Of a stretch of DNA of 38,152 nucleotides, positions 21,367 through 37,972 are shown one piece after another. Origin of the DNA: a virus; IMG/VR virus record IMGVR_UViG_3300005043_000149, positions 1-38,152 of that record; one strand, 5' to 3'. Position numbers and translations under genes: made by a program. Within the stretch, counting starts at the first letter, position 1; every line of letters begins with the position of its first letter. The notes under the pieces are model-generated. The model had not been told where the DNA came from. It saw only the letters and a list, made by a program, of their open reading frames with translations, and did no database searches.

Positions 21367-22983
21367 CTAGCTACCTTCACTCACATCATACTCACCACCA
21401 AGCTCTGCAACCACTAACGCTTGCTGCATCACTTCACTGGCTTCATCAATGGATAGATCTGTTTTTGCCAATAAGGTTTGTAAATCTTCTAATGAGTCGG
21501 CTGAGTTAACGATGCTTTCAATTTCATCGGTGAAGCCCTTTAAAATGGGTGACATATTATTGCTTAGTTGTTCACTTAGTTTATCGACTTCATCAATAGC
21601 AGCGTGCGTACTTTTAGCTTTAAGTACTGCAATTTTATTAATGGCTTTTTTTCTTAATGAAACCTGTTCTTTAATCTCATCATCTTGTGGGTCGGTTTGA
21701 CTGTTTTGAGTAGCCACTGAAACTGATTTCAAGATCTCTTCATCATCTTTGGCGATTGGGATCTGTAATTTATCCTGCGCCCATTCAACACTCACTCTCA
21801 TTCCTAAATCCACTAGCTTAGGTAATGACTCAGAGAAGCTCTTGATATCTTCTGGCTCGGTGATATCAAATTCAAATCGAGGGGATCGGTTTGGGTTTTG
21901 ATAACTTTTACCGTTCATGTAGTACATGGGGAAAAGCAGATCGCGGGTTAAGGTATTAGCCAGTTGTTTAAGATCAGAATCTCGCAATTCTTGGCGCACT
22001 TCATTATGCACATTACCTAATGCATTAGTGGAGCTTTTACCATCCGCTTGACTGGTGAGCGTACCGCCTAAAATCGCTTTACTCATGGTTTTTTCCATGT
22101 GCGTCATCATAAATTCAAACGGGGCTTGGGTGCCTTTGGCGGCTTCTTGAAAATCGATTTCCATGCCTTTGGGAATAATCCCGCCGGCATTATGGCCAAT
22201 ACTCATGACCGCTCTTAGCAATGTTCTTTTTTCTGTATCACTGGCACCTGAAGGATATTTACCCAGGCGCAGCGGAAGACCATAAATTTCTAAAAACTCG
22301 GCTAGATCTCTAACCGAGTAATTTTTAAAAATATATGGCCACGCGAGTACGCGGGCTAAACCATTGCGAGAGATATAACCTGACTTAGTTTTGTGAACGT
22401 GCTTTACCCATCCAAAGGTTTGAAGCTCAGCACCATTCACTGAGTTATCACGAAGCCTTAATTCATTGCGGTTATCGGGATGAATTTGAAACCAACTCGG
22501 ATCTTTAAATTCCACCTTTTCCGGAAGCCATATTTTTTCTTGCTGACTCCAATTAATTTCATTATTTGAAAAGCCTTTTAAAATAGAGTCACTCATATCA
22601 AAAATCAATTCATCTAAAAAAGTCATATCTTCAAAATGCTCTTGCAACATTTCGGTGTCTTTTAATTCGGCTGCACTGGCATTGCGGGGCGGTTTAATTT
22701 GCCAATCAACACCTTGTAAACATAACCTGCGTTTTTGCAGTTCCGCAAATAAATGACCGTCTTTTTCTTCCATATCTTCTGCGAGCTCGCATTGTGCTAT
22801 CAAATCACCTTCTTCTGCTCGGCGTAAGATGAGTGCGAGTTTTGACGGTGTTAAGCCGCGGCTTGGATGTCCTGCATAATGTTTGTTGAGATGCCCTAGT
22901 TTTGCATCATCTGTTTGTGGGCTTTTTAAGCTGTGCGAATTTAGCCTGTTACCTTGTGCGTCATACTGGAATAAATGTGCCAT
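21367..22983 (-). CDS. Portal protein (DUF935, Mu gp29-like)
   Basis: Protein of 538 residues from the ATG at 22983, which overlaps the terminase stop (TGATG); an extra upstream TTG codon is open but unlikely. Shows the DUF935 hallmarks: LTPSKLALILRRAEEGDL near the start, LFAELQKRR-CLQGVDW, EINW, LRLGKYPSGAS and GMEIDFQEAAKG. Forms the dodecameric portal through which DNA enters the head. It lies directly between the large terminase and MuF genes. The C terminus is charged and helical. Confidence 0.95.
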   Translation of the reverse strand: MAHLFQYDAQGNRLNSHSLKSPQTDDAKLGHLNKHYAGHPSRGLTPSKLALILRRAEEGDLIAQCELAEDMEEKDGHLFAELQKRRLCLQGVDWQIKPPRNASAAELKDTEMLQEHFEDMTFLDELIFDMSDSILKGFSNNEINWSQQEKIWLPEKVEFKDPSWFQIHPDNRNELRLRDNSVNGAELQTFGWVKHVHKTKSGYISRNGLARVLAWPYIFKNYSVRDLAEFLEIYGLPLRLGKYPSGASDTEKRTLLRAVMSIGHNAGGIIPKGMEIDFQEAAKGTQAPFEFMMTHMEKTMSKAILGGTLTSQADGKSSTNALGNVHNEVRQELRDSDLKQLANTLTRDLLFPMYYMNGKSYQNPNRSPRFEFDITEPEDIKSFSESLPKLVDLGMRVSVEWAQDKLQIPIAKDDEEILKSVSVATQNSQTDPQDDEIKEQVSLRKKAINKIAVLKAKSTHAAIDEVDKLSEQLSNNMSPILKGFTDEIESIVNSADSLEDLQTLLAKTDLSIDEASEVMQQALVVAELGGEYDVSEGS

Positions 22984-24521
22984 CAAAAAGCCCCTTGTTC
23001 AAAATTAAAGTCATCGTCGCCATCCTCATCAAACGAACTATTTTTATTAGGAAGCTCGGTAAACTCGATAATGCCTCCCTCCATCCAGCTCGCTCTAATG
23101 GCCATTACAAATGCGACCGCGGTATCTCCATGGCGTTGTCTGCCATCGGTTCCTTTGGTTGAGCCTTTGTCTATTTTAGGTACGCCATTTGCCATTTTTA
23201 TTTGTGCGAGATCGTCCTGTATGTCTTGGTGCCGAGGAATTTGAATATTAAAGTCCTCAAACTCCGCTTTTAATTTAGGCATCCACTCCATATACCAACG
23301 CTCATTAAGCATGACTTGCTCGACCATTTCTGTACCAAAATGCTCTGCGGCCGCTTCCGCTAAATAACCACCGTTGCCAGTTGCATCAAATGCCAAACCT
23401 TGTAATCTCGGAAGCCGATCACATAAGTAAAACAACACTTCTTTTTGTGCGTCATAAGTGAGGTTGCTCATTTCTAAAACGAATGGCGTTCGCTTGGTTA
23501 AATCTTTGTTAATGGTAAGCGGAGCAAAAACAGATAGATCGCCTTTGCGCGCAAAATCCTCACCAAAAGCATGGTTCAAATCTTTATTAAGTTTTGCCAA
23601 GTGAGGCTTAAGCTCGTCACACCATTCTTTTATTTGGATTTTTTTATGTTGTGCTGACCATTCTAAAAAGTCTTTAGGTGCGGTAAATCTGATGATGGGA
23701 ATATCTTTTTTCATTGCGGTATCAACCAATATCCGCTTGATATAAATACCGCTACCTTGTTTGGGAATACAAGCATATTCTTCTAATGCATCATCTTCTG
23801 TTGCAGTGTCGTTGAGTAGGTTAGCTTTCCATTCATCCTCAACGTCTTGTGACCAGGAGTCTTTTTTGATTTGGCAAATTCGCTTATATAGCCCTTCTGC
23901 ACACGCTTCATCTAAAGTGACACGATGGACGGAATAACGTTTTTTACCGGCCAAACTATCTTGAATTAAATGATTAAATAAATTATCTATGCCGTTATGC
24001 GTTGAGATTAAACGGACCTTTGCACCCCACATAGTCAGCGCAAGTGCTGCTTTGAGTACTTCGGCTAATTTGTCGTGAAATGCGGCTTCATCAATGGTGA
24101 CGTTGCCTTGCATTCCCCGTAAGTTTGACGGGTTAGAACTGAGCGCTTGGATCTTAAAACCACTAGCAAAGTGGATTGCAAAGGTGAGTATTTCTTTTCC
24201 ATCTTGTCCCGCATCAATAAATATTTCTTCCTTAATATCGCCTGCAGCTTTATCAAATGCCTTTGCCCACATGGCGGCCGCATCAATAAACTCCCGAGCC
24301 ATCTCTTTATTGGAACCCACATAAAAATGATTGGTTCCAAAGGCTGCTTTGGTTTTACTGGCACACAAAACGGCATCAGCAGCTTCCGCCCATGTAAGAC
24401 CCGTTCTTCTTGATTTGTGTGCTATTTTTAACGGTGAATCATCTGCCATCCATCGTTTTTGATAGCCTAGTAACAACTCATTTTCATCAAAAGGAATTAA
24501 CTCGCAGGGGGCAAGACTCAT
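22983..24521 (-). CDS. Terminase large subunit (Mu gp28-like)
   Basis: Protein of 512 residues. The ATPase part carries a variant Walker A (SRRTGLT, residues 37-43) and Walker B (VTIDEAA, with Asp144/Glu145). The C-terminal nuclease part contains GLAFDATGNGG, with the likely catalytic Asp. Highly similar in pattern to Mu gp28 family proteins. The gene overlaps the small terminase by one base and the portal by a TGATG junction. Drives headful packaging of DNA from integrated copies, as in Mu. Confidence 0.95.
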   Translation of the reverse strand: MSLAPCELIPFDENELLLGYQKRWMADDSPLKIAHKSRRTGLTWAEAADAVLCASKTKAAFGTNHFYVGSNKEMAREFIDAAAMWAKAFDKAAGDIKEEIFIDAGQDGKEILTFAIHFASGFKIQALSSNPSNLRGMQGNVTIDEAAFHDKLAEVLKAALALTMWGAKVRLISTHNGIDNLFNHLIQDSLAGKKRYSVHRVTLDEACAEGLYKRICQIKKDSWSQDVEDEWKANLLNDTATEDDALEEYACIPKQGSGIYIKRILVDTAMKKDIPIIRFTAPKDFLEWSAQHKKIQIKEWCDELKPHLAKLNKDLNHAFGEDFARKGDLSVFAPLTINKDLTKRTPFVLEMSNLTYDAQKEVLFYLCDRLPRLQGLAFDATGNGGYLAEAAAEHFGTEMVEQVMLNERWYMEWMPKLKAEFEDFNIQIPRHQDIQDDLAQIKMANGVPKIDKGSTKGTDGRQRHGDTAVAFVMAIRASWMEGGIIEFTELPNKNSSFDEDGDDDFNFEQGAF

Positions 24522-25114
24522 TAGACTATCCCTAGAATTTCATTTTTAATTAACCGAGCACCCTCAGCCGTTAGTCCGACTTGATGTGCGATTTCCTCTG
24601 CTGCACTCGCGGCTTCTTCTGCAAAGGCTGTGCGAATTTCTTTCTCTCGCTTGTGAGCATTCATCGCGGTTGACTCTAATCTTTGTGCTGCCAGCATTGC
24701 CTCTTTAATCATGTGTATATCAACTTCTTTATCGTCATCGTTATCGTCATCAAAGCTCATCATTTGTTGTTGCATGGCTTTAAACAACATAGAGCGACCC
24801 ATTTCTAAAATGAGTTTGGTGGTATCGCCAGTTGGTTTATCGCCTAACTCTGCTGTGAGTGCTTTGGTGGATTCGCGTAGCTCACGTAAACGTTTGCCTA
24901 TTGCCTCAGCCTTTTGAGCATGACGGCTTAAACCCGAACGGCTAATGGTGGCATCTTGCTCTAGCCCTGCATCCAAAATCATTCGATTCACTTCTTGCAG
25001 AATGTCACCTTGAGAACATTTGCGATCTCTCAGCATTTCATCCAATCGTTTTTGAATGCTCTCTGGAAGCAGGTCAACTTTTGATGGTTTGGTTCGTCTC
25101 GCTTTTTCACTCAT
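24521..25114 (-). CDS. Terminase small subunit (DUF3486, Mu gp27-like)
   Basis: Protein of 197 residues with the DUF3486 pattern: RTKPSKVDLLPESIQKRLDEMLRD, then a helix-turn-helix-like region (GLEQDATISRSGLSRHAQK) and a long helical stretch. Recognises phage DNA for packaging in Mu-like phages. It is translationally linked to the large subunit (shared base). Upstream comes the wHTH protein at 25120. Confidence 0.9.
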   Translation of the reverse strand: MSEKARRTKPSKVDLLPESIQKRLDEMLRDRKCSQGDILQEVNRMILDAGLEQDATISRSGLSRHAQKAEAIGKRLRELRESTKALTAELGDKPTGDTTKLILEMGRSMLFKAMQQQMMSFDDDNDDDKEVDIHMIKEAMLAAQRLESTAMNAHKREKEIRTAFAEEAASAAEEIAHQVGLTAEGARLIKNEILGIV

Positions 25115-25119
25115 GATGA

Positions 25120-25428
25120 CTACCTCTGGCTTACAGGTGCAGGACGTTTAATGCCAGGCGCAAAGACATTGCCTTCTGCGACATCTATTCCGCTTTGAGT
25201 AATAGTGCTTACCCAAACTTTATTGTGACCAATTTTTTCAACCGTGACATAGCCTTGTTGTTCAAGCCAAGTGAGTTCGGTTCTTATTTGGTCTAGGCTA
25301 CTTTTAAGCGAATATATTTTTAATACATCACGCAAAATAGCATCATTCAAATCAAACCCTGGCGCTTCATTGAGGGCTAACAGAATGGATATTCTTTTAT
25401 GCTCCGATAGCAGTTTGGACATTGGCAT
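25120..25428 (-). CDS. Winged-helix protein (VpaChn25_0724 family; Mu gp26-like)
   Basis: Protein of 102 residues, ArsR-like winged helix: SLKSSLDQIRTELTWLEQQGYVTVEKIGHNKVWVSTIT. Such proteins are conserved between the DUF2730 and small terminase genes of Mu-like phages (the gp26 slot). Probably helps packaging or regulates late genes; the exact role is unknown. One-base overlap with the DUF2730 gene. Confidence 0.85.
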   Translation of the reverse strand: MPMSKLLSEHKRISILLALNEAPGFDLNDAILRDVLKIYSLKSSLDQIRTELTWLEQQGYVTVEKIGHNKVWVSTITQSGIDVAEGNVFAPGIKRPAPVSQR

Positions 25429-25730
25429 TATGATTTACCTCTTAATTCATTTTCCATTAATATCTCAGTAATTTTTTTAAGGCCGTCCAGCTGAGGCATC
25501 ACAGCATCTAGCTTGCCACTGACTTCAATTAAGCTTTTATCCAGTTCATGAAAGTCATTAGTTCCTGGCATATCAATGATGGATGATTCTATTTTTGATA
25601 CTCGCTCAGTTAAATGGGTCACATCATCTTTTTTAGCAAACGTACGGCTCATCGCCCATACCACCAAAAAAAATATACAATTGAGAATAAAAGCGACTAA
25701 CTTCCAGTGTTCGATAAACCATTCCAACAT
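25428..25730 (-). CDS. DUF2730 membrane-anchored coiled-coil protein (Mu gp25-like)
   Basis: Protein of 100 residues with an N-terminal transmembrane helix (residues 9-29, LVAFILNCIFFLVVWAMSRT) followed by a coiled-coil (DVTHLTERVSKIESS). DUF2730 proteins sit just before the terminase genes in Mu-like phages. The function is unknown; a membrane or lysis-associated role is sometimes suggested. It overlaps the wHTH gene by one base. Confidence 0.85.
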   Translation of the reverse strand: MLEWFIEHWKLVAFILNCIFFLVVWAMSRTFAKKDDVTHLTERVSKIESSIIDMPGTNDFHELDKSLIEVSGKLDAVMPQLDGLKKITEILMENELRGKS

Positions 25731-25735
25731 CTAAA

Positions 25736-25966
25736 TTACTTCCTATAGTTTTTTTGATTGTGTTCAATTTGTGATTGGCAATAAATACAATTAAATGCTT
25801 CTGGCAATGCTTTTACGCGAGATTCTGGTATGTCTTCACCGCACTCCATGCACACGCGAATACCCAAATATTCTTTTGGTTGTGAGCGTTTACGCTTGTG
25901 ATTAGCAAGGGCGTGGTCTCTTTGCAGTTGTTCTATTTCGGCTGCTCTGTCGGCGTTGTCGCTCAT
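25736..25966 (-). CDS. TraR/DksA-type zinc-finger protein
   Basis: A 76-residue protein with a C4 zinc finger (Cys39, Cys42, Cys60, Cys63) in the context RVCMECGEDIPESRVKALP, typical of the C-terminal finger of DksA/TraR proteins. The short N-terminal helix (AAEIEQLQRDHALA) is much shorter than in DksA. In Mu-like phages this small gene lies between lysis genes and DUF2730. It may bind the RNA polymerase secondary channel, as TraR does, to bias host transcription; inference. ATGA coupling with the upstream gene. Confidence 0.85.
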   Translation of the reverse strand: MSDNADRAAEIEQLQRDHALANHKRKRSQPKEYLGIRVCMECGEDIPESRVKALPEAFNCIYCQSQIEHNQKNYRK

Positions 25967-26406
25967 TTAGCGTTACTCGAATGATTGCTAGTTTCGTTTT
26001 TTCCAGCCTGGTATTTAGCAATGCCGTGCGAGCCGAAGAAGAAGATAATGACGGCCATGGTTCCTGCAAGCATTACGCCGGTGCCAGCAACCTTAAAGTA
26101 AAACTCAGCTAAATCCATACGCCAAGGTGCAGCAATGCAGGCCATTAAAATAATACCTAACTCTGCCTTTATCCATAAAATGGCAATCGCTCTACGCGCC
26201 TTAGAGCGCTCAGTATTTTCACCCAATGTGGCTTTAACAAACGCTTGAACACTAATCACTGTTTTAGCATTAAACTCAATCACGTCTTCTTTGGTTAAAC
26301 TTAAATTACCAATCCAGCTGCCAACTTGAGCGAATAAGCCATTATCTTTATCTAGGATATTATCGGAGGTTTTGTCACTCCAAGTGAGCGGGTTATACCA
26401 GCTCAT
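25963..26406 (-). CDS. Putative holin
   Basis: Protein of 147 residues with two strong hydrophobic segments (about residues 75-95, ILWIKAELGIILMACIAAPW, and 105-130, KVAGTGVMLAGTMAVIIFFFG) and polar ends; the C-terminal ~18 residues are Asn/Ser/Lys-rich. It follows the endolysin gene with an overlapping ATG (stop at 26403), the usual holin slot in B3-like and BcepMu-like phages. No signal peptide. A classical holin sequence match is not evident, so the call rests on topology and neighbourhood. Confidence 0.7.
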   Translation of the reverse strand: MSWYNPLTWSDKTSDNILDKDNGLFAQVGSWIGNLSLTKEDVIEFNAKTVISVQAFVKATLGENTERSKARRAIAILWIKAELGIILMACIAAPWRMDLAEFYFKVAGTGVMLAGTMAVIIFFFGSHGIAKYQAGKNETSNHSSNAK

Positions 26407-26978
26407 AACTTTTCTCCTTCTTGGGAGTACTCTTCATTTAAACCATTTTGTAGTGCGATAAAAGCCCGCTCAATCCAGCCTTTAATAAACTTAATTTGAC
26501 TCACATCTTTTTGTGCTAGGTTTGCGTAACGCTTGCAACGTAGGCGTGTATATTCGATGGCTTTGTCTTCGATTTGATGCGGGTTGCTAAAAGCAGATTT
26601 AATAGTTTTTTCACCAATCAAACCATCAACGACAACCCCTAATGCTCTTTGCAAAGTCTTACGCGCAAAGTAGTTACCTTGATTAACTGAACAATCAAAA
26701 TGAATAATGGAAAGGTGGGGAGGAAGTTTTGAGCAATGGTTTTTTAGCCAGTAATCTTTATAGTAAATTTCAGCGGCATCAAGAATGGTGAGGTTTGGTA
26801 TATCAATGGTTTGATACCATCGCTTGGTGATGCCGTATTTAGTCTCTAAGCCTTTATCATCAGGATCATTAACATATCCTCCCTCAACACTTAAAAGCTG
26901 TGCAATGGCGGTACGGGCACTCTCTGACATTGATGAATCATCAATGAGTAGTATTTTAATTTCTTGGGTTGTTGGCAT
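26403..26978 (-). CDS. Endolysin (GH108 lysozyme with PG_binding_3)
   Basis: Protein of 191 residues. GH108 catalytic segment at residues 22-60: LLSVEGGYVNDPDDKGLETKYG, with catalytic Glu32, followed by TILDAAEIYYKDYWL. Residues ~75-165 form the PG_binding_3 domain (LSIIHFDCSVNQGNYFARKTLQRALGV). It lacks a signal peptide, so it would need the holin for release. The ATG at 26978 is the only start with a ribosome-binding site (AGG), but that site is buried in a 12-bp hairpin. First gene of the leftward late operon. Confidence 0.9.
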   Translation of the reverse strand: MPTTQEIKILLIDDSSMSESARTAIAQLLSVEGGYVNDPDDKGLETKYGITKRWYQTIDIPNLTILDAAEIYYKDYWLKNHCSKLPPHLSIIHFDCSVNQGNYFARKTLQRALGVVVDGLIGEKTIKSAFSNPHQIEDKAIEYTRLRCKRYANLAQKDVSQIKFIKGWIERAFIALQNGLNEEYSQEGEKL

Positions 26979-26985
26979 GGTGAGA

Positions 26986-27015
26986 CCTGCATTAAACGCT
27001 TGGGTTTAATGCAGG
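26986..27015 (-). promoter_or_regulatory. 12-bp hairpin covering the endolysin ribosome-binding site
   Basis: Perfect inverted repeat CCTGCATTAAAC (26986-26997) / GTTTAATGCAGG (27004-27015), with a 6-base loop. In the leftward mRNA the 3' arm ends in GCAGG, seven bases before the endolysin ATG, so the only visible Shine-Dalgarno is fully paired. This may delay lysis by blocking translation, or the dyad may be a site for a DNA-binding regulator such as Mor. Confidence 0.6.
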
Positions 27016-27073
27016 ATGCCAGAATGGTTTTAGATTGGATTTTAAACTGAGTTAAAAAAGAATTTGGTGAGAC
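27016..27073 (-). promoter_or_regulatory. Candidate late-operon promoter region
   Basis: Between the two-gene cassette terminator and the endolysin leader, the leftward strand has TAAAAT as a possible -10 but no convincing -35, as expected for an activator-dependent (Mor/C-type) promoter. A 9-mer TGGTGAGAC occurs at 26978-26986 and 27065-27073. Weak evidence. Confidence 0.35.
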
Positions 27074-27087
27074 TCATATAAAAAAGG

Positions 27088-27113
27088 CAATAAAAAACCC
27101 GCCTAAGCGGGTT
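27088..27113 (-). terminator. Rho-independent terminator for the two-gene cassette
   Basis: AACCCGC (27096-27102) and GCGGGTT (27107-27113) form a stem with a 4-base loop, followed on the leftward strand by TTTTATT. It lies 18 bases past the stop of the gene ending at 27132 and separates that cassette from the late operon. Confidence 0.85.
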
Positions 27114-27131
27114 GTTATTTCTCTAGCTCTA

Positions 27132-27554
27132 TTATGCTGCCAGTTTAGGCTTATCAACAAACATAAATTCACTATTATTTTGAGCCATATTATAAGCTTG
27201 CTTGTACGCTGCTTTAACATTGTTATCTACAACTTCATTACCTAAAGACAAAACTGCCTTTTCTAACACTGGTACTAGTGACAAGAAATCAGAATTAGAC
27301 ATTTCCAAAATAGGTTTCAAGTTGTCATTTACATAGCATTCAAAGCCTTTCAATTGAAAACCAACAACTTTTTCTCTTGCCCGATCAAATACTAGTGTTA
27401 AGAACTTATCAATGCGTCTAGATACAGTAAAATCATCAACTGCGAGATATTCAACGTAGTCCATAGAATGATAATAAATAGCACACGGCTTGAACTCTAC
27501 AGTATTCATAGTTGAATCAAAGTTCTGCATTAAAAATTTATTAAATTTATCCAT
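27132..27554 (-). CDS. Hypothetical protein, second gene of a moron-like cassette
   Basis: Protein of 140 residues from the ATG at 27554, which has GGAG 8 bases upstream; a longer frame overlaps the previous gene. Mostly alpha-beta soluble sequence (DSTMNTVEFKPCAIYYHSMDYVEYLAV; VFDRAREKVVGFQLKGF; LEKAVLSLGN), ending VDKPKLAA. No signal peptide, membrane segment or recognised motif. The start is 2 bases after the stop of its partner, so both are translated together. With its own promoter and terminator, this pair looks like accessory cargo. No function can be assigned. Confidence 0.8.
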   Translation of the reverse strand: MDKFNKFLMQNFDSTMNTVEFKPCAIYYHSMDYVEYLAVDDFTVSRRIDKFLTLVFDRAREKVVGFQLKGFECYVNDNLKPILEMSNSDFLSLVPVLEKAVLSLGNEVVDNNVKAAYKQAYNMAQNNSEFMFVDKPKLAA

Positions 27555-27555
27555 A

Positions 27556-28083
27556 TTAAAACTCCTGGTTATACCTGTTTTCATGATCTAATGGCTTTCC
27601 ATCGTCACCGCACTCAATCCATTCCCACTTTATTATTTTTGCATTATTTTGCAGTGTTTCTCTTATATACACCGCCATACCAACATCTTCTGGCACGTCT
27701 TCAATTTTTGCAACGCATACCATATGAGGTATATATTTATATCTATATTTTGGCTTCAATATCAATATAATGATATTTGAATCTTCACCATTTCTTTTAC
27801 AAGGCCTTTCAATTCCACCAAACGACAATTCAAAACTAGGCAAGCCATCAAAAGAGAAATCTTCTTCTAACCCTTCTTCATGATAACCAATCAAGTTCAC
27901 CATCGGTTGCTTACCTAATATAGTGTAAACAAAATCAAAAAGATCATTATGTAGGCTGTTTGCGATCTTAGGAAGAATGTAACTTTTATCGACTGTTACT
28001 GTAAGTTGGTTATCTGCGTTTCTAGGGTCTGGTATTTTAATACCTTTGTCTAACAACAAACCAACTTCTACATTCAATGACAT
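27556..28083 (-). CDS. Hypothetical protein, first gene of a moron-like cassette
   Basis: Protein of 175 residues (MSLNVEVGLLLDKGIKIP...). It alternates polar and hydrophobic strands (NIIILILKPKYRYKYIPHMVCVAKI) with acidic linkers; several Trp/Glu/Asp in the C-terminal KWEWIECGDDG. No membrane helix or catalytic signature recognised. The ribosome site AAGGA is 7 bases from the ATG, and a plausible promoter lies at 28114-28142. Its gene is followed by the partner gene and then a strong terminator. Function unknown. Confidence 0.8.
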   Translation of the reverse strand: MSLNVEVGLLLDKGIKIPDPRNADNQLTVTVDKSYILPKIANSLHNDLFDFVYTILGKQPMVNLIGYHEEGLEEDFSFDGLPSFELSFGGIERPCKRNGEDSNIIILILKPKYRYKYIPHMVCVAKIEDVPEDVGMAVYIRETLQNNAKIIKWEWIECGDDGKPLDHENRYNQEF

Positions 28084-28379
28084 ATTAATCTTCCTTGTTC
28101 GTTTTTGGCGCGCAATATACCGAATAGTCCTTTAAAACACAACTAATACTATGAATTATAGGCAACTATTTCAAGTAAAACACGTTTATATTAGTTACAA
28201 ATGCTTAAAAAGCGTTCAAAATGGTGAAAACTTATGAGTTTTCTTTCAAAACATCAACAATTACCATCCTACCTTAATGCTGCCATGTTTGGCTTTATTC
28301 AATAGCCTTTGTGAATATTGCCATATTTAAGCTAAGTAAAGGCAGGTTGATGTCTCACAAGGGTTTGAGATATTTCTCA
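28084..28379. other. AT-rich intergenic region with divergent promoters
   Basis: No credible gene. It carries the leftward cassette promoter (28114-28142), a short dyad (GAAAACT/AGTTTTC, 28226-28243), and four TGAGA/TCTCA half-sites at 28353-28385 arranged as two inverted pairs just upstream of the rightward promoter. The half-sites look like an operator for a dimeric repressor. Confidence 0.5.
28114..28142 (-). promoter_or_regulatory. Promoter of the two-gene cassette
   Basis: On the leftward strand TTGTGT, a 17-base spacer and TATATT lie about 30-60 bases before the ATG at 28083. The -10 matches well, the -35 half-matches. It explains how the pair could be expressed apart from the late operon. 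Confidence 0.55.
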
Positions 28380-28407
28380 TTGAGAATGACTGTTTAAAAT
28401 GTATAAT
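28380..28407 (+). promoter_or_regulatory. Sigma-70 promoter of a small RNA, with overlapping operator dyad
   Basis: TTGAGA (28380-28385), a 16-base spacer and a perfect TATAAT (28402-28407) on the + strand. The dyad TTCTCA-T-TGAGAA (28374-28386) overlaps the -35, so a repressor bound here would block it. The only thing downstream is a terminator 52 bases away. Confidence 0.7.
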
Positions 28408-28413
28408 TAATGT

Positions 28414-28483
28414 TCCTTACGGAAAGCTAGAGAATGTTCAGCTGACGCTATAGGAGCCGGGACGCTTATGCGTCCTTTTTTTT
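28414..28483 (+). ncRNA. Putative ~70-nt small RNA
   Basis: A transcript from the promoter at 28380-28407 would start near 28414 and end at a textbook terminator: stem GGACGC (28460-28465) / GCGTCC (28470-28475), 4-base loop, then eight Ts (28476-28483). The 5' part can fold a small UUCC/GGAA hairpin. It has no credible open reading frame. The T-tract overlaps the stop codon of the convergent lipoprotein gene, so it might also interfere with that mRNA. No known RNA family recognised. Confidence 0.65.
28460..28483 (+). terminator. Rightward rho-independent terminator of the small RNA
   Basis: A perfect 6-bp GC-rich stem with a TTAT loop followed by eight Ts on the + strand. There is no coding sequence on + that would need it, and the opposite strand lacks a T-tract after the stem, so it is not the terminator of the leftward lipoprotein gene. 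Confidence 0.85.
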
Positions 28484-28880
28484 ATGTATTTTCTCTCAAT
28501 ACGTCTTCACAGTGAGCTCTTAGTACTGTGCTGTATTTATCTACTAGCGCATACAATTCTTCTTCAGTAAATTTTTTAGCAAAAAAGTGCTTGGCTTCAT
28601 CTATCTTTTTTTGTTTTGTATGTTCAAGGATTTTTAGAAATGAAAATCCAAACTCATCTTGTTCTTCAATTATTGAAGAAAAATCATCTGTTCGGTTATT
28701 AGACTTTGCTTGATCTCGAAGCACCCTCCAGTGAACAGAATCAACCTGTGATATTTTAGCGCAAGCATAAACTCTCTCAATATGTGACTTAGCTCCAGTT
28801 AAGGTTGTTAATCGATCTTCTGGAATATCACAAGCCGATAACAATAACAGCGATAAAATGAGTGTGATTTTTTTCATCAT
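28482..28880 (-). CDS. Lipoprotein in the lysogenic operon
   Basis: Protein of 132 residues with a lipoprotein signal: MMKKITLILSLLLLSAC, a clear lipobox LSAC with Cys17 as the lipid-attachment residue (Asp at +2, which often means retention at the inner membrane). The mature part is helical and charged, with three further Cys. AGGA 7 bases before the ATG. It is the third gene of the operon that starts with the repressor, so it is likely made in lysogens. Phage lipoproteins made in lysogens often block superinfection; that role is a hypothesis here. Confidence 0.75.
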   Translation of the reverse strand: MMKKITLILSLLLLSACDIPEDRLTTLTGAKSHIERVYACAKISQVDSVHWRVLRDQAKSNNRTDDFSSIIEEQDEFGFSFLKILEHTKQKKIDEAKHFFAKKFTEEELYALVDKYSTVLRAHCEDVLRENT

Positions 28881-28904
28881 TTTAAATTCCTTTTTATATT
28901 TGAT

Positions 28905-29336
28905 TTAACTTCGTTCTTTCCACCAAGCTTTAATATGCACCAAAGCTACAATCCCCAAATACCAAGAAAAAAACATCGATATTACAACCGTTACGAATGA
29001 TTCACCCATATTCAAATTGGATTTAGAGTTTACATTTAATGTTAACACCAAGGTTACAACAATAACTACCAACATGGTGTATTTAAGATCTTCCGCTTCT
29101 TTTTTTGCTTTTTGTTTCTCTAAAATCATCTCATGATGAAAGTTGTGATAACAAGCACCGCACTCAACCGCCTTTCTGCTGATTGGAGTTTGGCAAGTTC
29201 TACAGTTTACTATTTCAGGACCACTAAGATTGGGGATGAAATTACCGTTATTGATGATATCCCTTCCTGCAACTTGAAGATTATTCCCATTGATATTTTG
29301 CCTAACATAGACTGCATTTTCATTTTCGTATGTCAT
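28905..29336 (-). CDS. Zinc-ribbon membrane protein with N-terminal QVAGRD motif
   Basis: Protein of 143 residues. N-terminal motif INGNNLQVAGRDIINNGN (residues 15-32), a zinc ribbon with Cys45, Cys48, Cys59 and Cys62, a basic helix (EKQKAKKEAEDLKY), and two transmembrane segments (about residues 87-103 and 114-135). Starts 4 bases after the repressor stop, so the two are in one operon. The QVAGRD motif is also at the very C terminus of the repressor, suggesting a shared partner or interaction. Function unknown. Confidence 0.75.
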   Translation of the reverse strand: MTYENENAVYVRQNINGNNLQVAGRDIINNGNFIPNLSGPEIVNCRTCQTPISRKAVECGACYHNFHHEMILEKQKAKKEAEDLKYTMLVVIVVTLVLTLNVNSKSNLNMGESFVTVVISMFFSWYLGIVALVHIKAWWKERS

Positions 29337-29340
29337 TTTT

Positions 29341-30015
29341 TTACTTCCCTTTGTTTACGAGGTCGCGACCTGCGACCTGACTTCTAGTACCTTCGATGTG
29401 TTGTGTGACTGTTGATAGTTCATTTATCCGTTTTTGCTTTGAATCATTCATATCTTTTCCGCCATCTGGAAATAAATGAGCCTCATTAGTTTTTGTGTGC
29501 TCTATACTATTTTTTAATAGTGAAATACTTAGCATTCTCACGGCACTACCTATCACTTTTTGACGCTCAGCCTCATCGGACACATCGCAAGCTTGGTTAT
29601 AAATCTCCACTGCAAGCTTATTAAAGACACTTTTGCTTATATTTTTTATTTCGCTGTCTTCACCTAATAGTGCAACGGTTACAAAATCGAACAGTGCAAG
29701 ATCTATTTTCGGAAGCCTTTCCTCAAACGGCTCTACCTTATCTACGCTTAGCTGATTTAAACTAGGTGGCTCTTCCCCGGTTAACAACCAATGTATATTG
29801 ATTTTGTTACGTTTTGCGTAATCAATTATTGCTTCAATTGGTGTTTTTTTTCTAGTTCGCCATGTTGCCGGAGTAGTCCTACTCACATCAAAAACTCTAG
29901 CAATATTTGAATCACTTTTTGTTATTTCAGGTGAATACCTACTCGCACGAACTAGTATTTCATTAAACTCATCCGAAAAGTCGAAATTTGCATCATTTAG
30001 TGTTGACATGCTCAT
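29341..30015 (-). CDS. CI-type phage repressor without protease domain
   Basis: Best start is the ATG at 30015 (GGA just upstream); others at 30051, 30024 and 30009 are possible. The N-terminal ~80 residues hold a helix-turn-helix of the phage CI/bacteriophage repressor type (SNIARVFDVSRTTPATWRTRKKTP, then AIIDYAKRNKINIHWLLTGEEP). The remaining residues are helical with no S24 protease Ser/Lys dyad, so RecA-induced cleavage is unlikely. The C terminus ends SQVAGRDLVNKGK. Transcribed divergently from the Ner-like gene, it is the lysogeny repressor candidate. Confidence 0.85.
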   Translation of the reverse strand: MSMSTLNDANFDFSDEFNEILVRASRYSPEITKSDSNIARVFDVSRTTPATWRTRKKTPIEAIIDYAKRNKINIHWLLTGEEPPSLNQLSVDKVEPFEERLPKIDLALFDFVTVALLGEDSEIKNISKSVFNKLAVEIYNQACDVSDEAERQKVIGSAVRMLSISLLKNSIEHTKTNEAHLFPDGGKDMNDSKQKRINELSTVTQHIEGTRSQVAGRDLVNKGK

Positions 30016-30031
30016 ACATTCCATTAATAAT
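30003..30031 (+). promoter_or_regulatory. Candidate early promoter Pe
   Basis: TTGACA (30003-30008), a 17-base spacer and AATAAT (30026-30031) point rightward to the Ner-like gene. This lies inside the 5' end of the repressor gene on the other strand. A second -10, TATAAT at 30053-30058, is nearer the ATG but lacks a good -35. Confidence 0.6.
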
Positions 30032-30085
30032 GTGTTCTCAACTGCAAACATTTATAATTTAATATTTAGCTATGGAGTTTACCCC

Positions 30086-30358
30086 ATGAACCGAACAGAA
30101 ATCAAAAAAGCTTTAGAGGCCAAGGGATTTAACCTTGCTCGTGTAGCAGAAGCGCTTGATGTTACGCCGCCTGCTGTTAGTGCCGTTATTAGTGGAAGAC
30201 ACTCGGGCAAACGAATTGCTTTAGCCGTTTGCAAATTAATCAACAAGCCTGTTGGTGTGGTTTTTCCTCAACACCCCCAATATCAAACAGCTCATTTTGC
30301 CAGGGAGAAAAGTGAAGAAGCAGTGGATGAAATCCGCCAAATACTACAAGCCAGTTAA
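30086..30358 (+). CDS. ner: Ner-like DNA-binding regulator
   Basis: A 90-residue helix-turn-helix protein from the ATG at 30086, preceded by GGAG 8 bases upstream. Motif NLARVAEALDVTPPAVSAVISGRHSGKRIALAVCKLINKP matches the Nlp/Ner family. In Mu, Ner shuts off early and repressor transcription and so favours lytic growth. It is the first gene of the rightward operon, opposite the CI-type repressor, which fits. Longer frames upstream run into the repressor gene's region and are not used. Confidence 0.85.
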   Translation: MNRTEIKKALEAKGFNLARVAEALDVTPPAVSAVISGRHSGKRIALAVCKLINKPVGVVFPQHPQYQTAHFAREKSEEAVDEIRQILQAS

Positions 30359-30380
30359 AGAAACAACCGTGGAGAAAATA

Positions 30381-31010
30381 ATGAATAACCTTAAAGAATC
30401 ACTCGTTGGTTATCACCACCAACAAATTATGACCACCAGTTTGGATATTGCTGAGCATTTTGGAAAACAGCATAAACATGTGGTACGTGATATAAAAAAA
30501 CTACTGTCTGAAATTATTGTTAATGCGCCCAAAATTGGACTCATTAAAGCAGAAAATTCGTCCCAAAAAGATGTTAGCGAGCCCAAAATTGGGCTGGCTA
30601 AACAAAAAACAACGGCATCAAAACAACTCTTTTTTGTTGGCGATTATTATAAAGATGGTCGTGGCAGACTGAAACCAATGTGGCAAATAAGCCGTGATGG
30701 TTTTGCATTGTTGGCAATGGGCTTTACGGGCGAAAAAGCGCTCAAGTGGAAGTTGAACTACATAAACGCCTTTAACCAAATGGAATCCATTTTAACCGAG
30801 CAAAAAGACCAACGCTTGGCAAGTATTAAACAAGGGTTATTCACCAAACACTCCCAATGGCAAGAAACCAAAGACCTACGAGAATTTGGTTTTAGCACTA
30901 AAGAAATTTCCATCATGCAAGGCAAACACCAAACCAATGTTCAAAAAATGCTATCTCGCATTAGAAAGGCAGGCATTAGCTTACTGATTAAACCTGTATT
31001 GGCCCACTAA
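30381..31010 (+). CDS. rha: Rha family regulatory protein
   Basis: Protein of 209 residues from the ATG at 30381 (GGAG upstream). The Rha (phage_pRha) domain shows the HFGKQHKHVVRDIKKLL opening, then YYKDGRGRLKPMWQISRDGFALLAMGFTGEKAL and KLNYINAFNQME. An imperfect duplication, NAPKIGLIKAE ... SEPKIGLAKQK, sits between the first helix and the core. Rha proteins are phage regulators that appear to affect phage growth when host IHF is absent. The C-terminal half (helix SIKQGLFTKHSQWQETKDL) looks like a wHTH-type domain. Second gene of the early operon. Confidence 0.85.
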   Translation: MNNLKESLVGYHHQQIMTTSLDIAEHFGKQHKHVVRDIKKLLSEIIVNAPKIGLIKAENSSQKDVSEPKIGLAKQKTTASKQLFFVGDYYKDGRGRLKPMWQISRDGFALLAMGFTGEKALKWKLNYINAFNQMESILTEQKDQRLASIKQGLFTKHSQWQETKDLREFGFSTKEISIMQGKHQTNVQKMLSRIRKAGISLLIKPVLAH

Positions 31011-31034
31011 AAACAAACCAAAGGACATAAAAAA

Positions 31035-31304
31035 ATGCTAACTCTTAAAAAAATAAAAGCGTCTGAAATTACCATAAGTAAAGGCACTCCAAGTATTGAA
31101 TGTAAAAGCTGTTACTCCGTTTCTGATAGCAAAATGGTTATTCCTGCTGAGGAGTGGGTTCAAGCTGCACATTGTTGCGGATGGCGCGAAGTTGAAACAC
31201 CGTTAATTATTCTTCCTGCGGTGTGTCCTGATTGTATTTTTGAATTAGAACAGCTTGAAAATGATATAGAAGCCGCTGCGACTGGTGAAAGGCAAATCGC
31301 ATGA
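31035..31304 (+). CDS. Cys-rich early protein
   Basis: Protein of 89 residues with Cys at 23, 26, 47, 48, 64 and 67 (CKSC, HCCGW, CPDC), probably zinc-binding. The SD AAAGGA is 9 bases before the ATG. Small Cys-rich genes occur in the early regions of BcepMu- and B3-like phages, unknown role. The next gene starts within its last codons (ATGA). Confidence 0.75.
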   Translation: MLTLKKIKASEITISKGTPSIECKSCYSVSDSKMVIPAEEWVQAAHCCGWREVETPLIILPAVCPDCIFELEQLENDIEAAATGERQIA

Positions 31305-31609
31305 GTGAGAAGTATTTAAGTGCTCAAATTCAACGCGTACTGACTTGTATTAGTTTAATGGCAGGCAATGAAATTGAAGGGATTGAGCCGGGCAAATTAG
31401 CGGTTGCACTTGATACTTCACCAGCCGATGTGACCCGTATTTTAGCTAACTTAGAACATGCAAAGTGGGCTGAGCGGTTGCCTACTAATGAAAAACGATG
31501 GCGCTTACACCGCAAGCCGGTCCAGCTAAGTAACACCGTTGAGCAAAATTTTAGAGACAACATTAGAGCCTTGCAGAATGAGGCTAACAACTACAACGTA
31601 TTGGGATAA
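31301..31609 (+). CDS. Winged-helix early protein
   Basis: A 102-residue protein with an IclR-like winged helix: AQIQRVLTCISLMAG, then GIEPGKLAVALDTSPADVTRILANLEHAKWAERLPTNEKRWRLH, and a helical C terminus. Overlaps the Cys-rich gene by four bases. Probably a DNA-binding regulator of early functions; target unknown. Confidence 0.8.
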   Translation: MSEKYLSAQIQRVLTCISLMAGNEIEGIEPGKLAVALDTSPADVTRILANLEHAKWAERLPTNEKRWRLHRKPVQLSNTVEQNFRDNIRALQNEANNYNVLG

Positions 31610-31614
31610 TGATA

Positions 31615-32526
31615 ATGGCTAAAAAAGAAATGAAAGAGATCAGTACTGCTCAGGCAAAAGAGATTGTTACTGCTAAGGAAATATTGGCAAGCAAAGAAGA
31701 TGTGTTAAAGCAATTAGGGCAAATTGAAGCATTTGAGTTTGTTAACAAATTGGCAATTGTTGCCAATTTGAAGATCATTCAAGAAATAAAGGAAACTAAA
31801 GCCTATAAGGGTTTAACCTATATTGATGAAAACGGAAAACTGGCAACAATTGCCAATTTTGAAGATTTTTGTAATTACAAACTTAACTCGCCCAAAAGAA
31901 CGATTGACGATCGCTTACTCAATCTAAAATCTTTTGGCGAAGAGTTTTATGAAGCATCACAAAAAATAGGTTTAGGTTCCCGAGACCTTCGCAAACTGCG
32001 CCAATTGCCTTCAGATGACAAACAACTAATTATTGGCTCTGAAGCTGTAGATTTAGGCGATAAAGAAGCAATCAAAGAATTGATTGAAGATTTAGACATC
32101 ACCCACAAAAAAGAAATCATCGAGAAAGACTCCCAACTAAAAGCCAGCCGTGAATCTAGCACGGAAACGGCCATCAAATTACAAGACGCTCAGGAAAAAC
32201 TAGCGCAACGAAAATTCACAGCAGCCAATTGGCAGGATGAAGTGAAAGACTTTTTTGCCTGTATGCATAAAGTTCATAACAGCATGACTGAGAACATTAA
32301 TCAGTTAATGGAATTAAATGAGCAGTTAGGGTTTACAGAAATGGATGAGCGTTCAAAAGAAGCGGCGACCTCGGCTTTTTATGCAGATAACAAATTAATG
32401 GTTGAGCAGTTTTCTTTGGCTTGGAATGAAATTTATCGCTCTTTGGCGCATGTGGAAGAAACCGCAAAACCAAGCGGTGAGTGGATGGCTGAAATGGGCT
32501 TTGAGGGAATGGGAGAAGAGGCATGA
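31615..32526 (+). CDS. Coiled-coil early protein preceding transposase A
   Basis: Protein of 303 residues from the ATG at 31615 (GGGA nine bases upstream; 31609 also open). Helical throughout: an N-terminal ~140 residues with TIDDRLLNLKSFGEEFYEASQKIG, then a long coiled-coil (residues ~150-200) and a C-terminal region with MTENINQLMEL. That peptide is nearly identical to the first residues of the MuB-like protein encoded downstream. Similar genes stand before A in several BcepMu/B3-like phages, function unknown. Two palindromes lie within it. Confidence 0.75.
   Translation: MAKKEMKEISTAQAKEIVTAKEILASKEDVLKQLGQIEAFEFVNKLAIVANLKIIQEIKETKAYKGLTYIDENGKLATIANFEDFCNYKLNSPKRTIDDRLLNLKSFGEEFYEASQKIGLGSRDLRKLRQLPSDDKQLIIGSEAVDLGDKEAIKELIEDLDITHKKEIIEKDSQLKASRESSTETAIKLQDAQEKLAQRKFTAANWQDEVKDFFACMHKVHNSMTENINQLMELNEQLGFTEMDERSKEAATSAFYADNKLMVEQFSLAWNEIYRSLAHVEETAKPSGEWMAEMGFEGMGEEA
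31747..31859 (+). repeat. Two intragenic palindromes, 90 bp apart
   Basis: AAATTGGCAA-ttg-TTGCCAATTT (31747-31769) has perfect 10-bp arms; a second copy at 31837-31859 (AAACTGGCAA-caa-TTGCCAATTT) has one mismatch. TTGGCA-N-TGCCAA dyads are typical operator shapes. They could bind a regulator within the early operon or arise from a local duplication of a short coding motif (KLA-VAN / KLATIAN). Confidence 0.5.
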
Positions 32527-34337
32527 ATTCCCTAGCCAGTTCACTGGACATCAACTATTGGGTAGAACAACTCAATGATGCTGGTCACGGTAAAAAGGGC
32601 TCTATTCTCAATAGTGCTTGTGACGCTTTGGGATTTAATAACAAAGATGCTTTTTACCGTGCGCTAAAAAAAGTGGGTTGGAAAAGTGGTAAAGCGAAAC
32701 GCTCTGATGCGGGTAAAACTGAAATGAGTGAAGAGGCCATTAACTTGATGGTGGCTATTTTAAACCAAGGCGTTCGTGAGAATGGCAAGCGTGTAATGGA
32801 TGTCACTACGGCCAGAAGTATACTCATTAGCAACGGTCATAACTGTGTGAGCCACAGCCAAGTTTGCAGAGTATTAGCTGCTAGAAATGCATCAGTAAGA
32901 CAGCTGGACAATGTGGCACCGCACGTTGAAATGAAATCATTAGGACCGAATCACGTTCATCAAACTGACCCCAGTTATTGTTTGCTTTATTACCCACCGG
33001 GCAAGCCGGGCAAACGACAGACATTTATGAACGATGCTGATTACTACGCTAACAAGCCCGATAACATCGACAAGATTAAGAACTTAAGAGTTTGGCGCTA
33101 TGTGTTGATTGATCATTATTCTGGAGCTGTTCGTTTATTTTACTTTGAAGCCAGCGGTGAAACTCAAGCGAACATGTTTACTTTTTTAATGTGGTGTTGG
33201 GCTAAGCATGATGGCAGTTCTTTTATGGGTGCGCCCAATATTTTGCTTTGGGATAAGGGAAGTGCCAATGGTGCTAAAGCGATTAAGAATGTTTTAACTG
33301 CTTTGGGCGTTGAGCAAATCACCCATGAAGCAGGACGACCACGCGCAAAAGGCGCGGTTGAAGTGGCTAATAATATTGTAGAAAAACAATTTGAAAGTCG
33401 TATTTTATTTGAGCCAGTGGATAGTGTGGCTGAATTAAATGAGTCGGCTTGGGCGTGGCAAGAAGCATTTAACGCGAACCTTGTTCCTGGCATGAACTGC
33501 AAACATTACCGGCATAAGCAAGCCCGATTAGATGTTTGGTTAAAAATTTACACACCTCAATTTAGGCACTTTTTACGTGAGTTGCCGGATGATAAAACTT
33601 GCCGAATGCTGTTAACCCGTGATGATGAAACGCGCAAAGTCACAGGTGCTTTGAGTATTACTTACGTTCACCCTGTAGCGAAGCAAAAGCTCTCTTATGA
33701 CTTGTCTGACTTAGAAAATATTCGCAACGGCCAAACGGTAAAGGTGAGCCCGTTAATTATTGGTGAAGAGTGGGAAATGTTAATTGGCGTTCCTGACAAA
33801 CTGGGTGATTTTATTTATCACGCGATTGCACCAATTGAGCGCGACGAAGCAGGCTTTAGAGTAGATGCGCCTGTATTTGGTGAAGCCTTTGATCGCAATA
33901 ATGACCTTGAAAGTCAGACGTTAGCAAAAGAGTCTGATCGCCTTGCTTTCCCTGGACTCAATGACAGTCAAATTAAGCGCGCTAAAAAGAAGAAAGATGC
34001 ACCGTTTAATGGGGCATTAGTGACTCACTCCCATTTAAAAAATATTGAGCATCAAACGCACATTAGCCCGAAAGGCACACAAATTGTTGCGCAGTCGCCT
34101 GTGACTAAACAGGTAGAAAACGCTGAGAAGATGATTAAAAAGAATCAATCAAAAAGCATGGAGCCTCTTGATTTAAAGATATTGTTAACCGAGCAATTAG
34201 GACGTGGGCTTAAGCCCAGTGAGCTTGATTACTTGGAAACAATTGGGGGGGTGAGCCGAGTGGATGTAGGCGAGCTAGTGGAAAAATTGCATAAGGGCTT
34301 ACCTCAAGCACCTGTGCTGAAAATAGCGAGACTATAA
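32523..34337 (+). CDS. A: Transposase A (MuA-like D-D-E integrase)
   Basis: Protein of 604 residues. An N-terminal HTH part (LNDAGHGKKGSILNSACDAL and ARSILISNGHNCVSHSQVCRVL) precedes the rve/DDE core, where Asp149 (HQTDPSY), Asp244 (LLWDKGS) and Glu280 (RAKGAVE) are spaced D-94-D-35-E, the usual pattern. The C-terminal ~170 residues include the Mu_transpos_C-like beta part (LSITYVHPVAKQKLSYDL) and a helical tail, probably for contact with B. Performs the strand transfer that integrates and replicates the phage. Its ATG overlaps the previous stop. Confidence 0.95.
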   Translation: MNSLASSLDINYWVEQLNDAGHGKKGSILNSACDALGFNNKDAFYRALKKVGWKSGKAKRSDAGKTEMSEEAINLMVAILNQGVRENGKRVMDVTTARSILISNGHNCVSHSQVCRVLAARNASVRQLDNVAPHVEMKSLGPNHVHQTDPSYCLLYYPPGKPGKRQTFMNDADYYANKPDNIDKIKNLRVWRYVLIDHYSGAVRLFYFEASGETQANMFTFLMWCWAKHDGSSFMGAPNILLWDKGSANGAKAIKNVLTALGVEQITHEAGRPRAKGAVEVANNIVEKQFESRILFEPVDSVAELNESAWAWQEAFNANLVPGMNCKHYRHKQARLDVWLKIYTPQFRHFLRELPDDKTCRMLLTRDDETRKVTGALSITYVHPVAKQKLSYDLSDLENIRNGQTVKVSPLIIGEEWEMLIGVPDKLGDFIYHAIAPIERDEAGFRVDAPVFGEAFDRNNDLESQTLAKESDRLAFPGLNDSQIKRAKKKKDAPFNGALVTHSHLKNIEHQTHISPKGTQIVAQSPVTKQVENAEKMIKKNQSKSMEPLDLKILLTEQLGRGLKPSELDYLETIGGVSRVDVGELVEKLHKGLPQAPVLKIARL

Positions 34338-34339
34338 CG

Positions 34340-35527
34340 ATGGCTGAGAATATTAACCAGTTAATGGAATTAACAAATTTACATTATGCAATTGAAGACT
34401 TACGACTACCTCAAGTGGGTTTGTGTAAGTACCTCAAACGTATGGGATTTAGAACCAGCACGAGTATGGTGAGCAAGTTAAAAATAAGAGGTGAATGGCC
34501 AAAAAATTACAGTACCGAAGATATTGAACATTGTAAAAAAGAGATAGAAGCTTATCTAGTTGATAACGGAGCAACGAGTGCGCACACGGAAAGTTTATGG
34601 CGCACGAGCACTGGTCGACCTGATTTCCTTCCTGATAACGAAGTCCTTTATGAACACCCGGAGCCCGAAATGCTAACGAATAATACTAAACGATTTTTTA
34701 AATTACGGCATGATATTTTTGAAAATGAAATAGCCTGTGAGAGTGATGTTTTTTTGGCTGATAGCCATCAGCTAGTTCTTGAAGAGATTTTAAGCGCTGC
34801 CAGTGCAGGCAGTATGACGGCCGTAATTGGCGAGTGCGGAAGTGGCAAAACCATTTTAAGACGTGCCTTTATTGCCCGTATTCAAGAAGATCATCCTGAA
34901 GTGATTTTGATTCAACCGGCACGACTTGATCGAAAGAAAATGAACGCTGAGTCTATATCTTCAGCCATTTGTAGAGCGCTACAAGTTGGACACTGCAGAA
35001 GTGCAGAAGATCGCGATGCGGCTATTGAGCAAGCTCTAATTTCTAGTGCAAACAATGGCAATTTACATCTATTAGTCGTTGATGAAGCGCATGATTTACC
35101 GCTGGATGTTATCAAGCTTTTCAAGCGTATTTGGGAGCTAACCCACGGCTTTAAACGAGTGATGGGGATTGTGCTGATGGGGCAAACTGAACTCAAGCGA
35201 AAGCTAGAATCTCAATCCGTTCGGGAGTTCACGTGGCGCTGTAATCAAATTGAAATGAGACCGCTTGGGCTTGATGTTGCTAACTATATTCGCCATAAGT
35301 TTGAGCGTGGTGGCTCTAATGCTGATGACTACTTTGACGAAGAAGCCTTTCAAGCGATACGCAAAAAATGCAGTGGAAAAATCAGACAGGGATTGGGCTT
35401 TGGTGCGCAAGAAATGGATATGTCTTTTCCGTTGCATGTAAATTCGTGGCTATCTAAAACCATGAATATGGCAACTCAAATTGGTGAGAAGAAGATCACT
35501 AAAACCATGATTGAGCGGGTGAAGTAA
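34340..35527 (+). CDS. B: Transposition protein B (MuB-like AAA+ ATPase)
   Basis: Protein of 395 residues with a Walker A (GECGSGKT, residues 164-171) and Walker B (LLVVDEA, residues 244-250) of the AAA+ fold. The N-terminal ~70 residues are helical and HTH-like (VGLCKYLKRMGFRTSTSMVSK), as in MuB. MuB picks target DNA and activates A. Its gene begins 2 bases after A. The first 11 codons are almost identical to a segment in the gene before A (32284-32317). Longer than MuB (312 residues) because of an N-terminal extension. Confidence 0.95.
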   Translation: MAENINQLMELTNLHYAIEDLRLPQVGLCKYLKRMGFRTSTSMVSKLKIRGEWPKNYSTEDIEHCKKEIEAYLVDNGATSAHTESLWRTSTGRPDFLPDNEVLYEHPEPEMLTNNTKRFFKLRHDIFENEIACESDVFLADSHQLVLEEILSAASAGSMTAVIGECGSGKTILRRAFIARIQEDHPEVILIQPARLDRKKMNAESISSAICRALQVGHCRSAEDRDAAIEQALISSANNGNLHLLVVDEAHDLPLDVIKLFKRIWELTHGFKRVMGIVLMGQTELKRKLESQSVREFTWRCNQIEMRPLGLDVANYIRHKFERGGSNADDYFDEEAFQAIRKKCSGKIRQGLGFGAQEMDMSFPLHVNSWLSKTMNMATQIGEKKITKTMIERVK

Positions 35528-35754
35528 TGGCTGATTTAATAGCCGTTGAAATTACTGGTAATGCTTTGGTTAAGATTAAGCGAAAACTTTTTCTTACACC
35601 AGAGCAGGCTAAAGACTTATTGGCAAATGATAAATCAATGATAGCCGCTTTAAGTAAAAACCAAGATTATGAAATTCAAGATTGGGGAGTGGTTTACGGC
35701 GAAAAATCACACTCTAATTGGGTTGAAAATTTAAACGTGACAATAGGAGCATAA
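35527..35754 (+). CDS. Hypothetical early protein
   Basis: A 75-residue protein (MADLIAVEITGNALVK...), beta-alpha soluble, no motif recognised. It starts by overlapping the stop of B by one base and is followed by the DUF3164 gene. Small genes between B and the DUF3164 gene are common in Mu-like phages. Function unknown. Confidence 0.65.
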   Translation: MADLIAVEITGNALVKIKRKLFLTPEQAKDLLANDKSMIAALSKNQDYEIQDWGVVYGEKSHSNWVENLNVTIGA

Positions 35755-35757
35755 GTG

Positions 35758-36375
35758 ATGCAAGACGATTATTTGATAAATCGACAGGGCTTTAAAATTC
35801 CATTAGCCAAGATCAGTACCAGCGATAAATTACAAAACAGTTTGGTTAATGTAATGGTTGAAGAAGCTAAGGTATTGAGCGAATTACACGCTGAATTTAA
35901 GCGCAAATGCTTTAGTGATATTCATGACTTTATTGGTGTGTTAGCTCAAGAGTATGAGGTGAAAATTGGCGGTAAACAAGGCGGTGTGACGCTGACTTCT
36001 TATGACGGCAGACTGAGAGTGCGATTAGGCGTTGCGCCAGAAATTGCATTCGGCCCCGAAATTATAGCGGCTAAAGAGTTAATTAATTCCGTCATTAATG
36101 AGCAACTTAAATTGATTGGTGATGAAGCAAAGCTATTGATTGCCATCATTCAAGATGCGTTTGAGACGAATAATGAAGGTAATTTTAGTAAAGCTAAAAT
36201 TATGAATTTACGTAGTAAACATCGTTTGAGTAATGATTCTGAATCATGGGCTAAAGCGATGAAAGCGCTTGATGACGCGATTATTATTGGCTCGACTAAG
36301 ACTTACATTTTGTTCCATGAGCGTAATGAGGTGGGTGCTTGGGTTCCTATTCCATTGGTTAGTAAATCTTTGTAG
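35758..36375 (+). CDS. DUF3164 protein
   Basis: Protein of 205 residues from the ATG at 35758 (AGGAG 8 bases upstream). Motifs of DUF3164: NRQGFKIPLAKIS near the start, the helix LHAEFKRKCFSDIHDFIGVLAQEY, GGKQGGVTLTSYDGRLRVRLGVAPEIAFGPE and a C-terminal KALDDAIIIGSTKTYILFHER. These proteins stand between transposition and GemA/Mor genes of Mu-like phages; their role is unknown. The frame also allows a GTG three bases upstream. Confidence 0.85.
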   Translation: MQDDYLINRQGFKIPLAKISTSDKLQNSLVNVMVEEAKVLSELHAEFKRKCFSDIHDFIGVLAQEYEVKIGGKQGGVTLTSYDGRLRVRLGVAPEIAFGPEIIAAKELINSVINEQLKLIGDEAKLLIAIIQDAFETNNEGNFSKAKIMNLRSKHRLSNDSESWAKAMKALDDAIIIGSTKTYILFHERNEVGAWVPIPLVSKSL

Positions 36376-36384
36376 GTGAGCGAT

Positions 36385-37960: not shown

Positions 37961-37972
37961 GGGAAAGAGAAC

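Follow-up and report, generated by a model that had tools for sequence, protein, structure and literature searches.

Does the gap between two leftward gene units of a transposable phage contain a transcription unit for a short, non-coding RNA? The window, that is the whole stretch of DNA analysed, is a 38,152-base IMG/VR virus record of the Mu/B3 type, and the nearest relatives of the phage are found in Pseudoalteromonas. Its transposase (32523-34337, + strand) is ~27-38% identical to those of B3-like phages and 54-65% identical to those of Pseudoalteromonas prophages and similar IMG/VR records. The switch comprises a CI-type repressor (29341-30051, - strand), a Ner-like HTH protein (frame 30008-30358, + strand) and a Rha-like regulator (30252-31010, + strand). 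The late genes, including the endolysin gene (26403-26978), are oriented leftward. The repressor operon (30051-28482) also runs leftward, in the order repressor, membrane protein and lipoprotein. Its last gene encodes a small lipoprotein of 132 aa (28482-28880, - strand), for which no family match above curated cut-offs was obtained. The end of this gene and the start of a 175-aa gene at 28083 (- strand) enclose a gap of 398 bases. The latter gene and a 150-aa gene form an accessory pair of unassigned function (28083-27132, - strand), with a weak putative promoter (TTGAAA-17-TAGTAT, 28174-28146, - strand, 9/12) and a strong terminator at 27113-27096. A scan for tRNA and tmRNA genes found none.

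Two details of the lysogeny genes are recorded here for completeness. The early promoter TTGACA-17-AATAAT (+ strand) sits within the longest repressor frame (30003-30051). Translation of the repressor therefore probably begins at an internal ATG close to 30010 and not at 30051. Furthermore, the C-terminus of the CI-like repressor (29341-29389, - strand) ends in SQVAGRDLVNKGK, and the adjoining membrane zinc-ribbon protein carries NLQVAGRDIINNGN near its N-terminus (29260-29336, - strand). The same pairing is found in a distant Mu-like phage (L045, 6823-7905), whose repressor has QVSGRDIINKKKD and whose membrane protein next to it has NQVAARDIVNYYN. A common motif may link the repressor and its membrane partner.

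The first-pass annotation had placed a compact promoter-terminator unit on the + strand of the gap, between the lysogeny and accessory units. Sequence and placement are both exact. The sigma-70-type promoter (28380-28407, 11/12) consists of TTGAGA (28380-28385) and TATAAT (28402-28407), separated by 16 nt. A stretch of 52 nt connects the -10 element to the stem of an intrinsic terminator (28459-28483). The terminator is built from the perfect, GC-rich 6-bp stem and TTAT loop of GGACGC-TTAT-GCGTCC (28460-28475), an additional G-T pair (28459/28476) and eight Ts (28476-28483). The eight Ts share bases with the stop codon of the lipoprotein gene, which converges on the unit.

The terminator is non-random beyond doubt. 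By equal criteria, three strong terminators are observed in the window, compared with 0.03 per shuffle; the other one nearby is that of the accessory pair. Of 28 promoter matches in 22000-38152, only two reach 11/12, this promoter among them. When the whole window was shuffled 150 times with dinucleotides preserved, no 11/12 promoter fell within 20-200 nt ahead of a strong terminator, and the unit is the sole close pair of a strong promoter and a strong terminator on the same strand in the 38 kb. If the terminator is taken as given, 0.9% of local AT-rich shuffles hold an 11/12 promoter at this distance. Thus, the promoter match is good but not overwhelming.

The predicted non-coding transcript comprises ~72 nt (28412-28483, + strand, 5' end approximate), with a closed 46-nt hairpin (28412-28457) followed by the terminator hairpin. 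Its G+C content is 52% over 28412-28476, compared with 33% in the gap upstream. The calculated folding energy is -25.9 kcal/mol (z -3.2), which is mostly due to the terminator. Without the terminator the 5' domain has a z of -1.7, and since 16 of 200 shuffles are equally stable, its structure is not proven. There is no ORF of at least 20 codons, the longest ATG frames having 6 and 3 codons. The unit is thus as compact and free of ORFs as the first-pass annotation had stated, and size and form are typical of phage sRNAs, in line with its proposal of a small RNA. Production of a short terminated RNA is plausible and somewhat more likely than not. The best reading is a phage sRNA candidate with a layout resembling that of lambda OOP and with a putative function.

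What such an RNA might do depends on the leftward mRNA. No intrinsic terminator was recognised on the - strand between 28482 and 27113, so transcription of the repressor operon is expected to continue across the unit, which would make this mRNA the perfect complement of the RNA. For this reason, an action in cis at the convergent boundary, by an RNA of ~70 nt with its own promoter and terminator as in lambda OOP, is the most supported reading, though it is held tentatively. It is favoured further because promoter and terminator are jointly non-random, the fold is stable and an ORF of at least 20 codons is absent, because no + strand gene of annotated size lies upstream and the T run of the terminator reaches the convergent stop codon, and because a scan of ~45 phage gene starts for targets in trans gave no outlier beyond multiple testing. 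The sigma-70 promoter would give rise to a ~70-nt RNA ended by its own intrinsic terminator, and the leftward repressor-membrane protein-lipoprotein mRNA would run on through 28482-28412. The RNA would pair with the 3' tail of this mRNA and RNase III would cut the duplex. Together with polymerase collision, pairing would trim or limit the leftward mRNA, so that less read-through reaches 28083-27132. The terminator would keep rightward polymerase from antisense entry into the lysogeny operon, and a factor bound to a dyad over the -35 element could set the timing.

Several findings stand against the cis reading. There is no homologue in the collections searched and hence no evolutionary support, no such unit is present at the corresponding place in related prophages, and the fold of the 5' domain alone is unexceptional. 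The RNA had also been proposed to act as antisense to the lipoprotein mRNA. Antisense action on the coding sequence is not supported, the overlap being only 2 nt, within the stop codon, which likewise speaks against action in cis; pairing with a read-through 3' end is possible. A Rho-dependent end of the leftward mRNA ahead of the unit may also count against this reading.

Known phage RNAs offer a comparison. Lambda OOP has a length of 77 nt and the sar RNA of P22 ~70 nt. OOP of lambdoid phages, including OOP-BTP1, is a short terminated RNA encoded in the immunity region. Its own promoter faces a switch gene, and the RNA is antisense to the 3' end of that gene (PMC7067206, PMC12197685). In terms of sequence anatomy alone the unit is similar, with its own promoter and intrinsic terminator, a predicted length of 60-90 nt and no ORF. 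In contrast to OOP, which overlaps the coding end of cII, it shares 2 nt with the convergent coding sequence and adjoins a lipoprotein gene instead of a gene for a cII-type activator. Unlike OOP, the RNA does not match the 3' coding end of any lysis/lysogeny regulator in antisense; it would be complementary only to the presumed read-through tail. No sequence relation to OOP was found, and the phage families differ. Because of the 2-nt coding overlap, membership of the unit in the OOP group is not shown. The sar RNA has an antisense role in the immunity region of a temperate phage (PMC12197685), and the predicted RNA is comparable in size and location. However, sar acts by pairing with the ant mRNA, whose translation initiation it blocks, whereas the RNA of the unit would cover no gene start.

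Short RNAs with a hairpin and a U tail are the usual form of Hfq-type sRNAs. A trans-acting RNA that pairs with host or phage mRNAs, as VpdS and PreS do, is nearly as likely as action in cis and has a modest chance of being correct. The predicted RNA agrees with this form in its size, hairpin and U8 tail, the T run exceeding the U tail of at least 7 expected at the intrinsic terminator of an Hfq-dependent sRNA, and the ~46 nt upstream would provide a putative target-binding domain. The RNA includes GUUCCUU, which is complementary to ribosome-binding sites of the AAGGAA type. VpdS of VP882 and PreS of lambda are reported to bind Hfq and to exert regulatory effects (PMC12197685). The unit resembles them as an independent short phage RNA with a U8 tail read from the sequence, but Hfq binding and regulation by its RNA are conjecture. 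In target prediction, proposed in the first-pass annotation as a check, a crude scan of duplex energy without accessibility, covering phage gene starts only, singled out none of the ~45 starts (best z -2.5). In Rfam 15 no family reached its gathering threshold. The best weak covariance-model match, to the Gifsy prophage RNA isrK (RF01394), extends over the full length. Its 14.9 bits (E 0.2-0.8) lie below the cut-off of 50 and rest on the terminator, and the 5' hairpin is not kept. This match is at chance level and lends no support to an Hfq-type sRNA. Other Rfam matches at relaxed thresholds are also at chance level and have mainly a terminator in common with the unit.

The corresponding gap in relatives suggests a serious third reading. 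The layout is the same in records with 54-65% identical transposases, except for the gap that separates the repressor from the lysis genes. A promoter and terminator scan with the same criteria found no such unit in the gap of 12 related loci (L002-L013). Seven gaps were read closely (L003, L008, L009, L047, L048, L049 and L051); each has a rightward promoter followed by small peptides. These promoters resemble TGTTATA(G/T)T..GTTAA, and in several a palindrome overlaps. The peptides are mostly of the double-glycine leader type, for instance MKTKKQIPSQLLKTIFGG-SAGGGDG, with only weak, sub-threshold bacteriocin-like or ComC matches. One or two double-glycine-leader peptides of the types GGSAGGGDG and GGNGSGNDP lie beside the repressor in related Pseudoalteromonas transposable prophages. 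They are located behind the rightward promoter in L049 (6334-6873), L051 (6137-6737), L009 (4872-5696), L048 (5721-6126), L047 (5648-6278), L003 (5146-5532) and others. The palindrome of the gap promoter, AACATTTGGCAAATGTT, is identical in L050 (6867-6883), L051 (6395-6411) and L049 (6558-6574). The palindromes of the early promoters differ (TGTGCAGATATCTGCACA in L050, AGGGTTCACATGTGAACCCT in L051). Repressor control of the gap promoter is thus improbable in L050 and L051, and a separate regulator is suggested. A rightward promoter in the gap looks like a feature of the group, and a predicted transcript end after 70 nt is special to the phage of the window. The unit could then be the leftover of a rightward peptide operon that was replaced by leftward lysogeny genes, with a terminator that insulates and an RNA without function. 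The rightward promoter and small peptides at the corresponding place in the seven relatives agree with this origin. Yet the promoter of the window has no significant sequence in common with theirs and an 11/12 match is not expected from decay. The proposal is held at slightly lower odds than action in trans. The terminator might instead serve a longer rightward transcript, TATAAT being internal or incidental. As the first-pass annotation had claimed, no other gene on this strand calls for a terminator if genes of annotated size are considered, but three + strand frames of 23-28 codons lie upstream (28151-28397). One of them is preceded by an RBS-like GGTGA before 28234, and 28234-28305 resembles the peptide leader of a relative (QQLPSYLNAAMFG compared with KQIPSQLLKTIFG; p 0.004 from shuffles, uncorrected for the four frames). 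A longer transcript is nevertheless quite improbable: the glycine-rich core is absent after the leader, no promoter at the scan threshold lies close upstream of the frames, and the peptide of 28234-28305 has no convincing relatives in 108 genomes (E 0.2 or worse, matches in unrelated sequence). Peptide-like matches of 28241-28305 in three genomes were rejected; they lie in unrelated sequence in which the frame is not continued as a like peptide.

Searches for homologues of the unit were negative throughout. DNA similarity searches of phages and plasmids and three exact patterns in IMG/VR yielded no homologue. The matches to an 18-mer pattern in IMG/VR belong to unrelated phages, in which they are close to a gene start, and were discarded. 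No homologue was found in 108 Pseudoalteromonas and 397 family-level genomes either, and all these searches together yielded nothing but fragments of 14-37 bases. Those examined are best read as chance or as reuse of the terminator hairpin elsewhere. This hairpin occurs just 3' of ORFs in two related bacterial genomes, once exactly and once with a single change. No homologous neighbourhood was found when neighbouring genes were used as bait. The lipoprotein, the 28083 gene and the repressor had no relatives in the viral contig collection, and the lipoprotein had none in genome contigs or plasmids. For the membrane protein, the lipoprotein and the 28083 gene (175 aa) no phage relatives were found. 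Since there is no homologue in the collections searched, the unit is private to this phage in present data.

The operator-like dyad that had been noted over the -35 element is present and unique in the window. It consists of two overlapping dyads (28366-28386), TGAGATATTTCTCA (TGAGA-TATT-TCTCA, 28366-28379) and TTCTCATTGAGAA (TTCTCA-T-TGAGAA, 28374-28386), which touch the -35 element and may form an operator. A role as operator of the phage switch is not supported: the dyad occurs as a single copy and is absent from the repressor/Ner promoter, and among the relatives two phages have an identical gap palindrome but different palindromes at their early promoters. The idea of a repressor operator was therefore dropped: control by the phage repressor is unsupported because TGAGATATTTCTCATTGAGAA has no second copy at the early repressor/Ner promoter. 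The boldest proposal, a new sRNA of B3-like phages that has an operator over its -35 element, determines from the convergent side where the mRNA of the repressor operon ends and how abundant it is, and so tunes lysogeny, appears unlikely.

Phage-encoded sRNAs are known chiefly from lambdoid and Vibrio phages, and none was found described for Mu/B3-type transposable phages in a limited literature search. Phage small RNAs are thus a known kind of regulator, and the unit is an unconserved candidate for one. The findings do not give evidence of conservation or function, but the unit probably makes a short regulatory RNA. If made, this RNA would give the control region of Mu/B3-type phages an additional element in the form of a short RNA.
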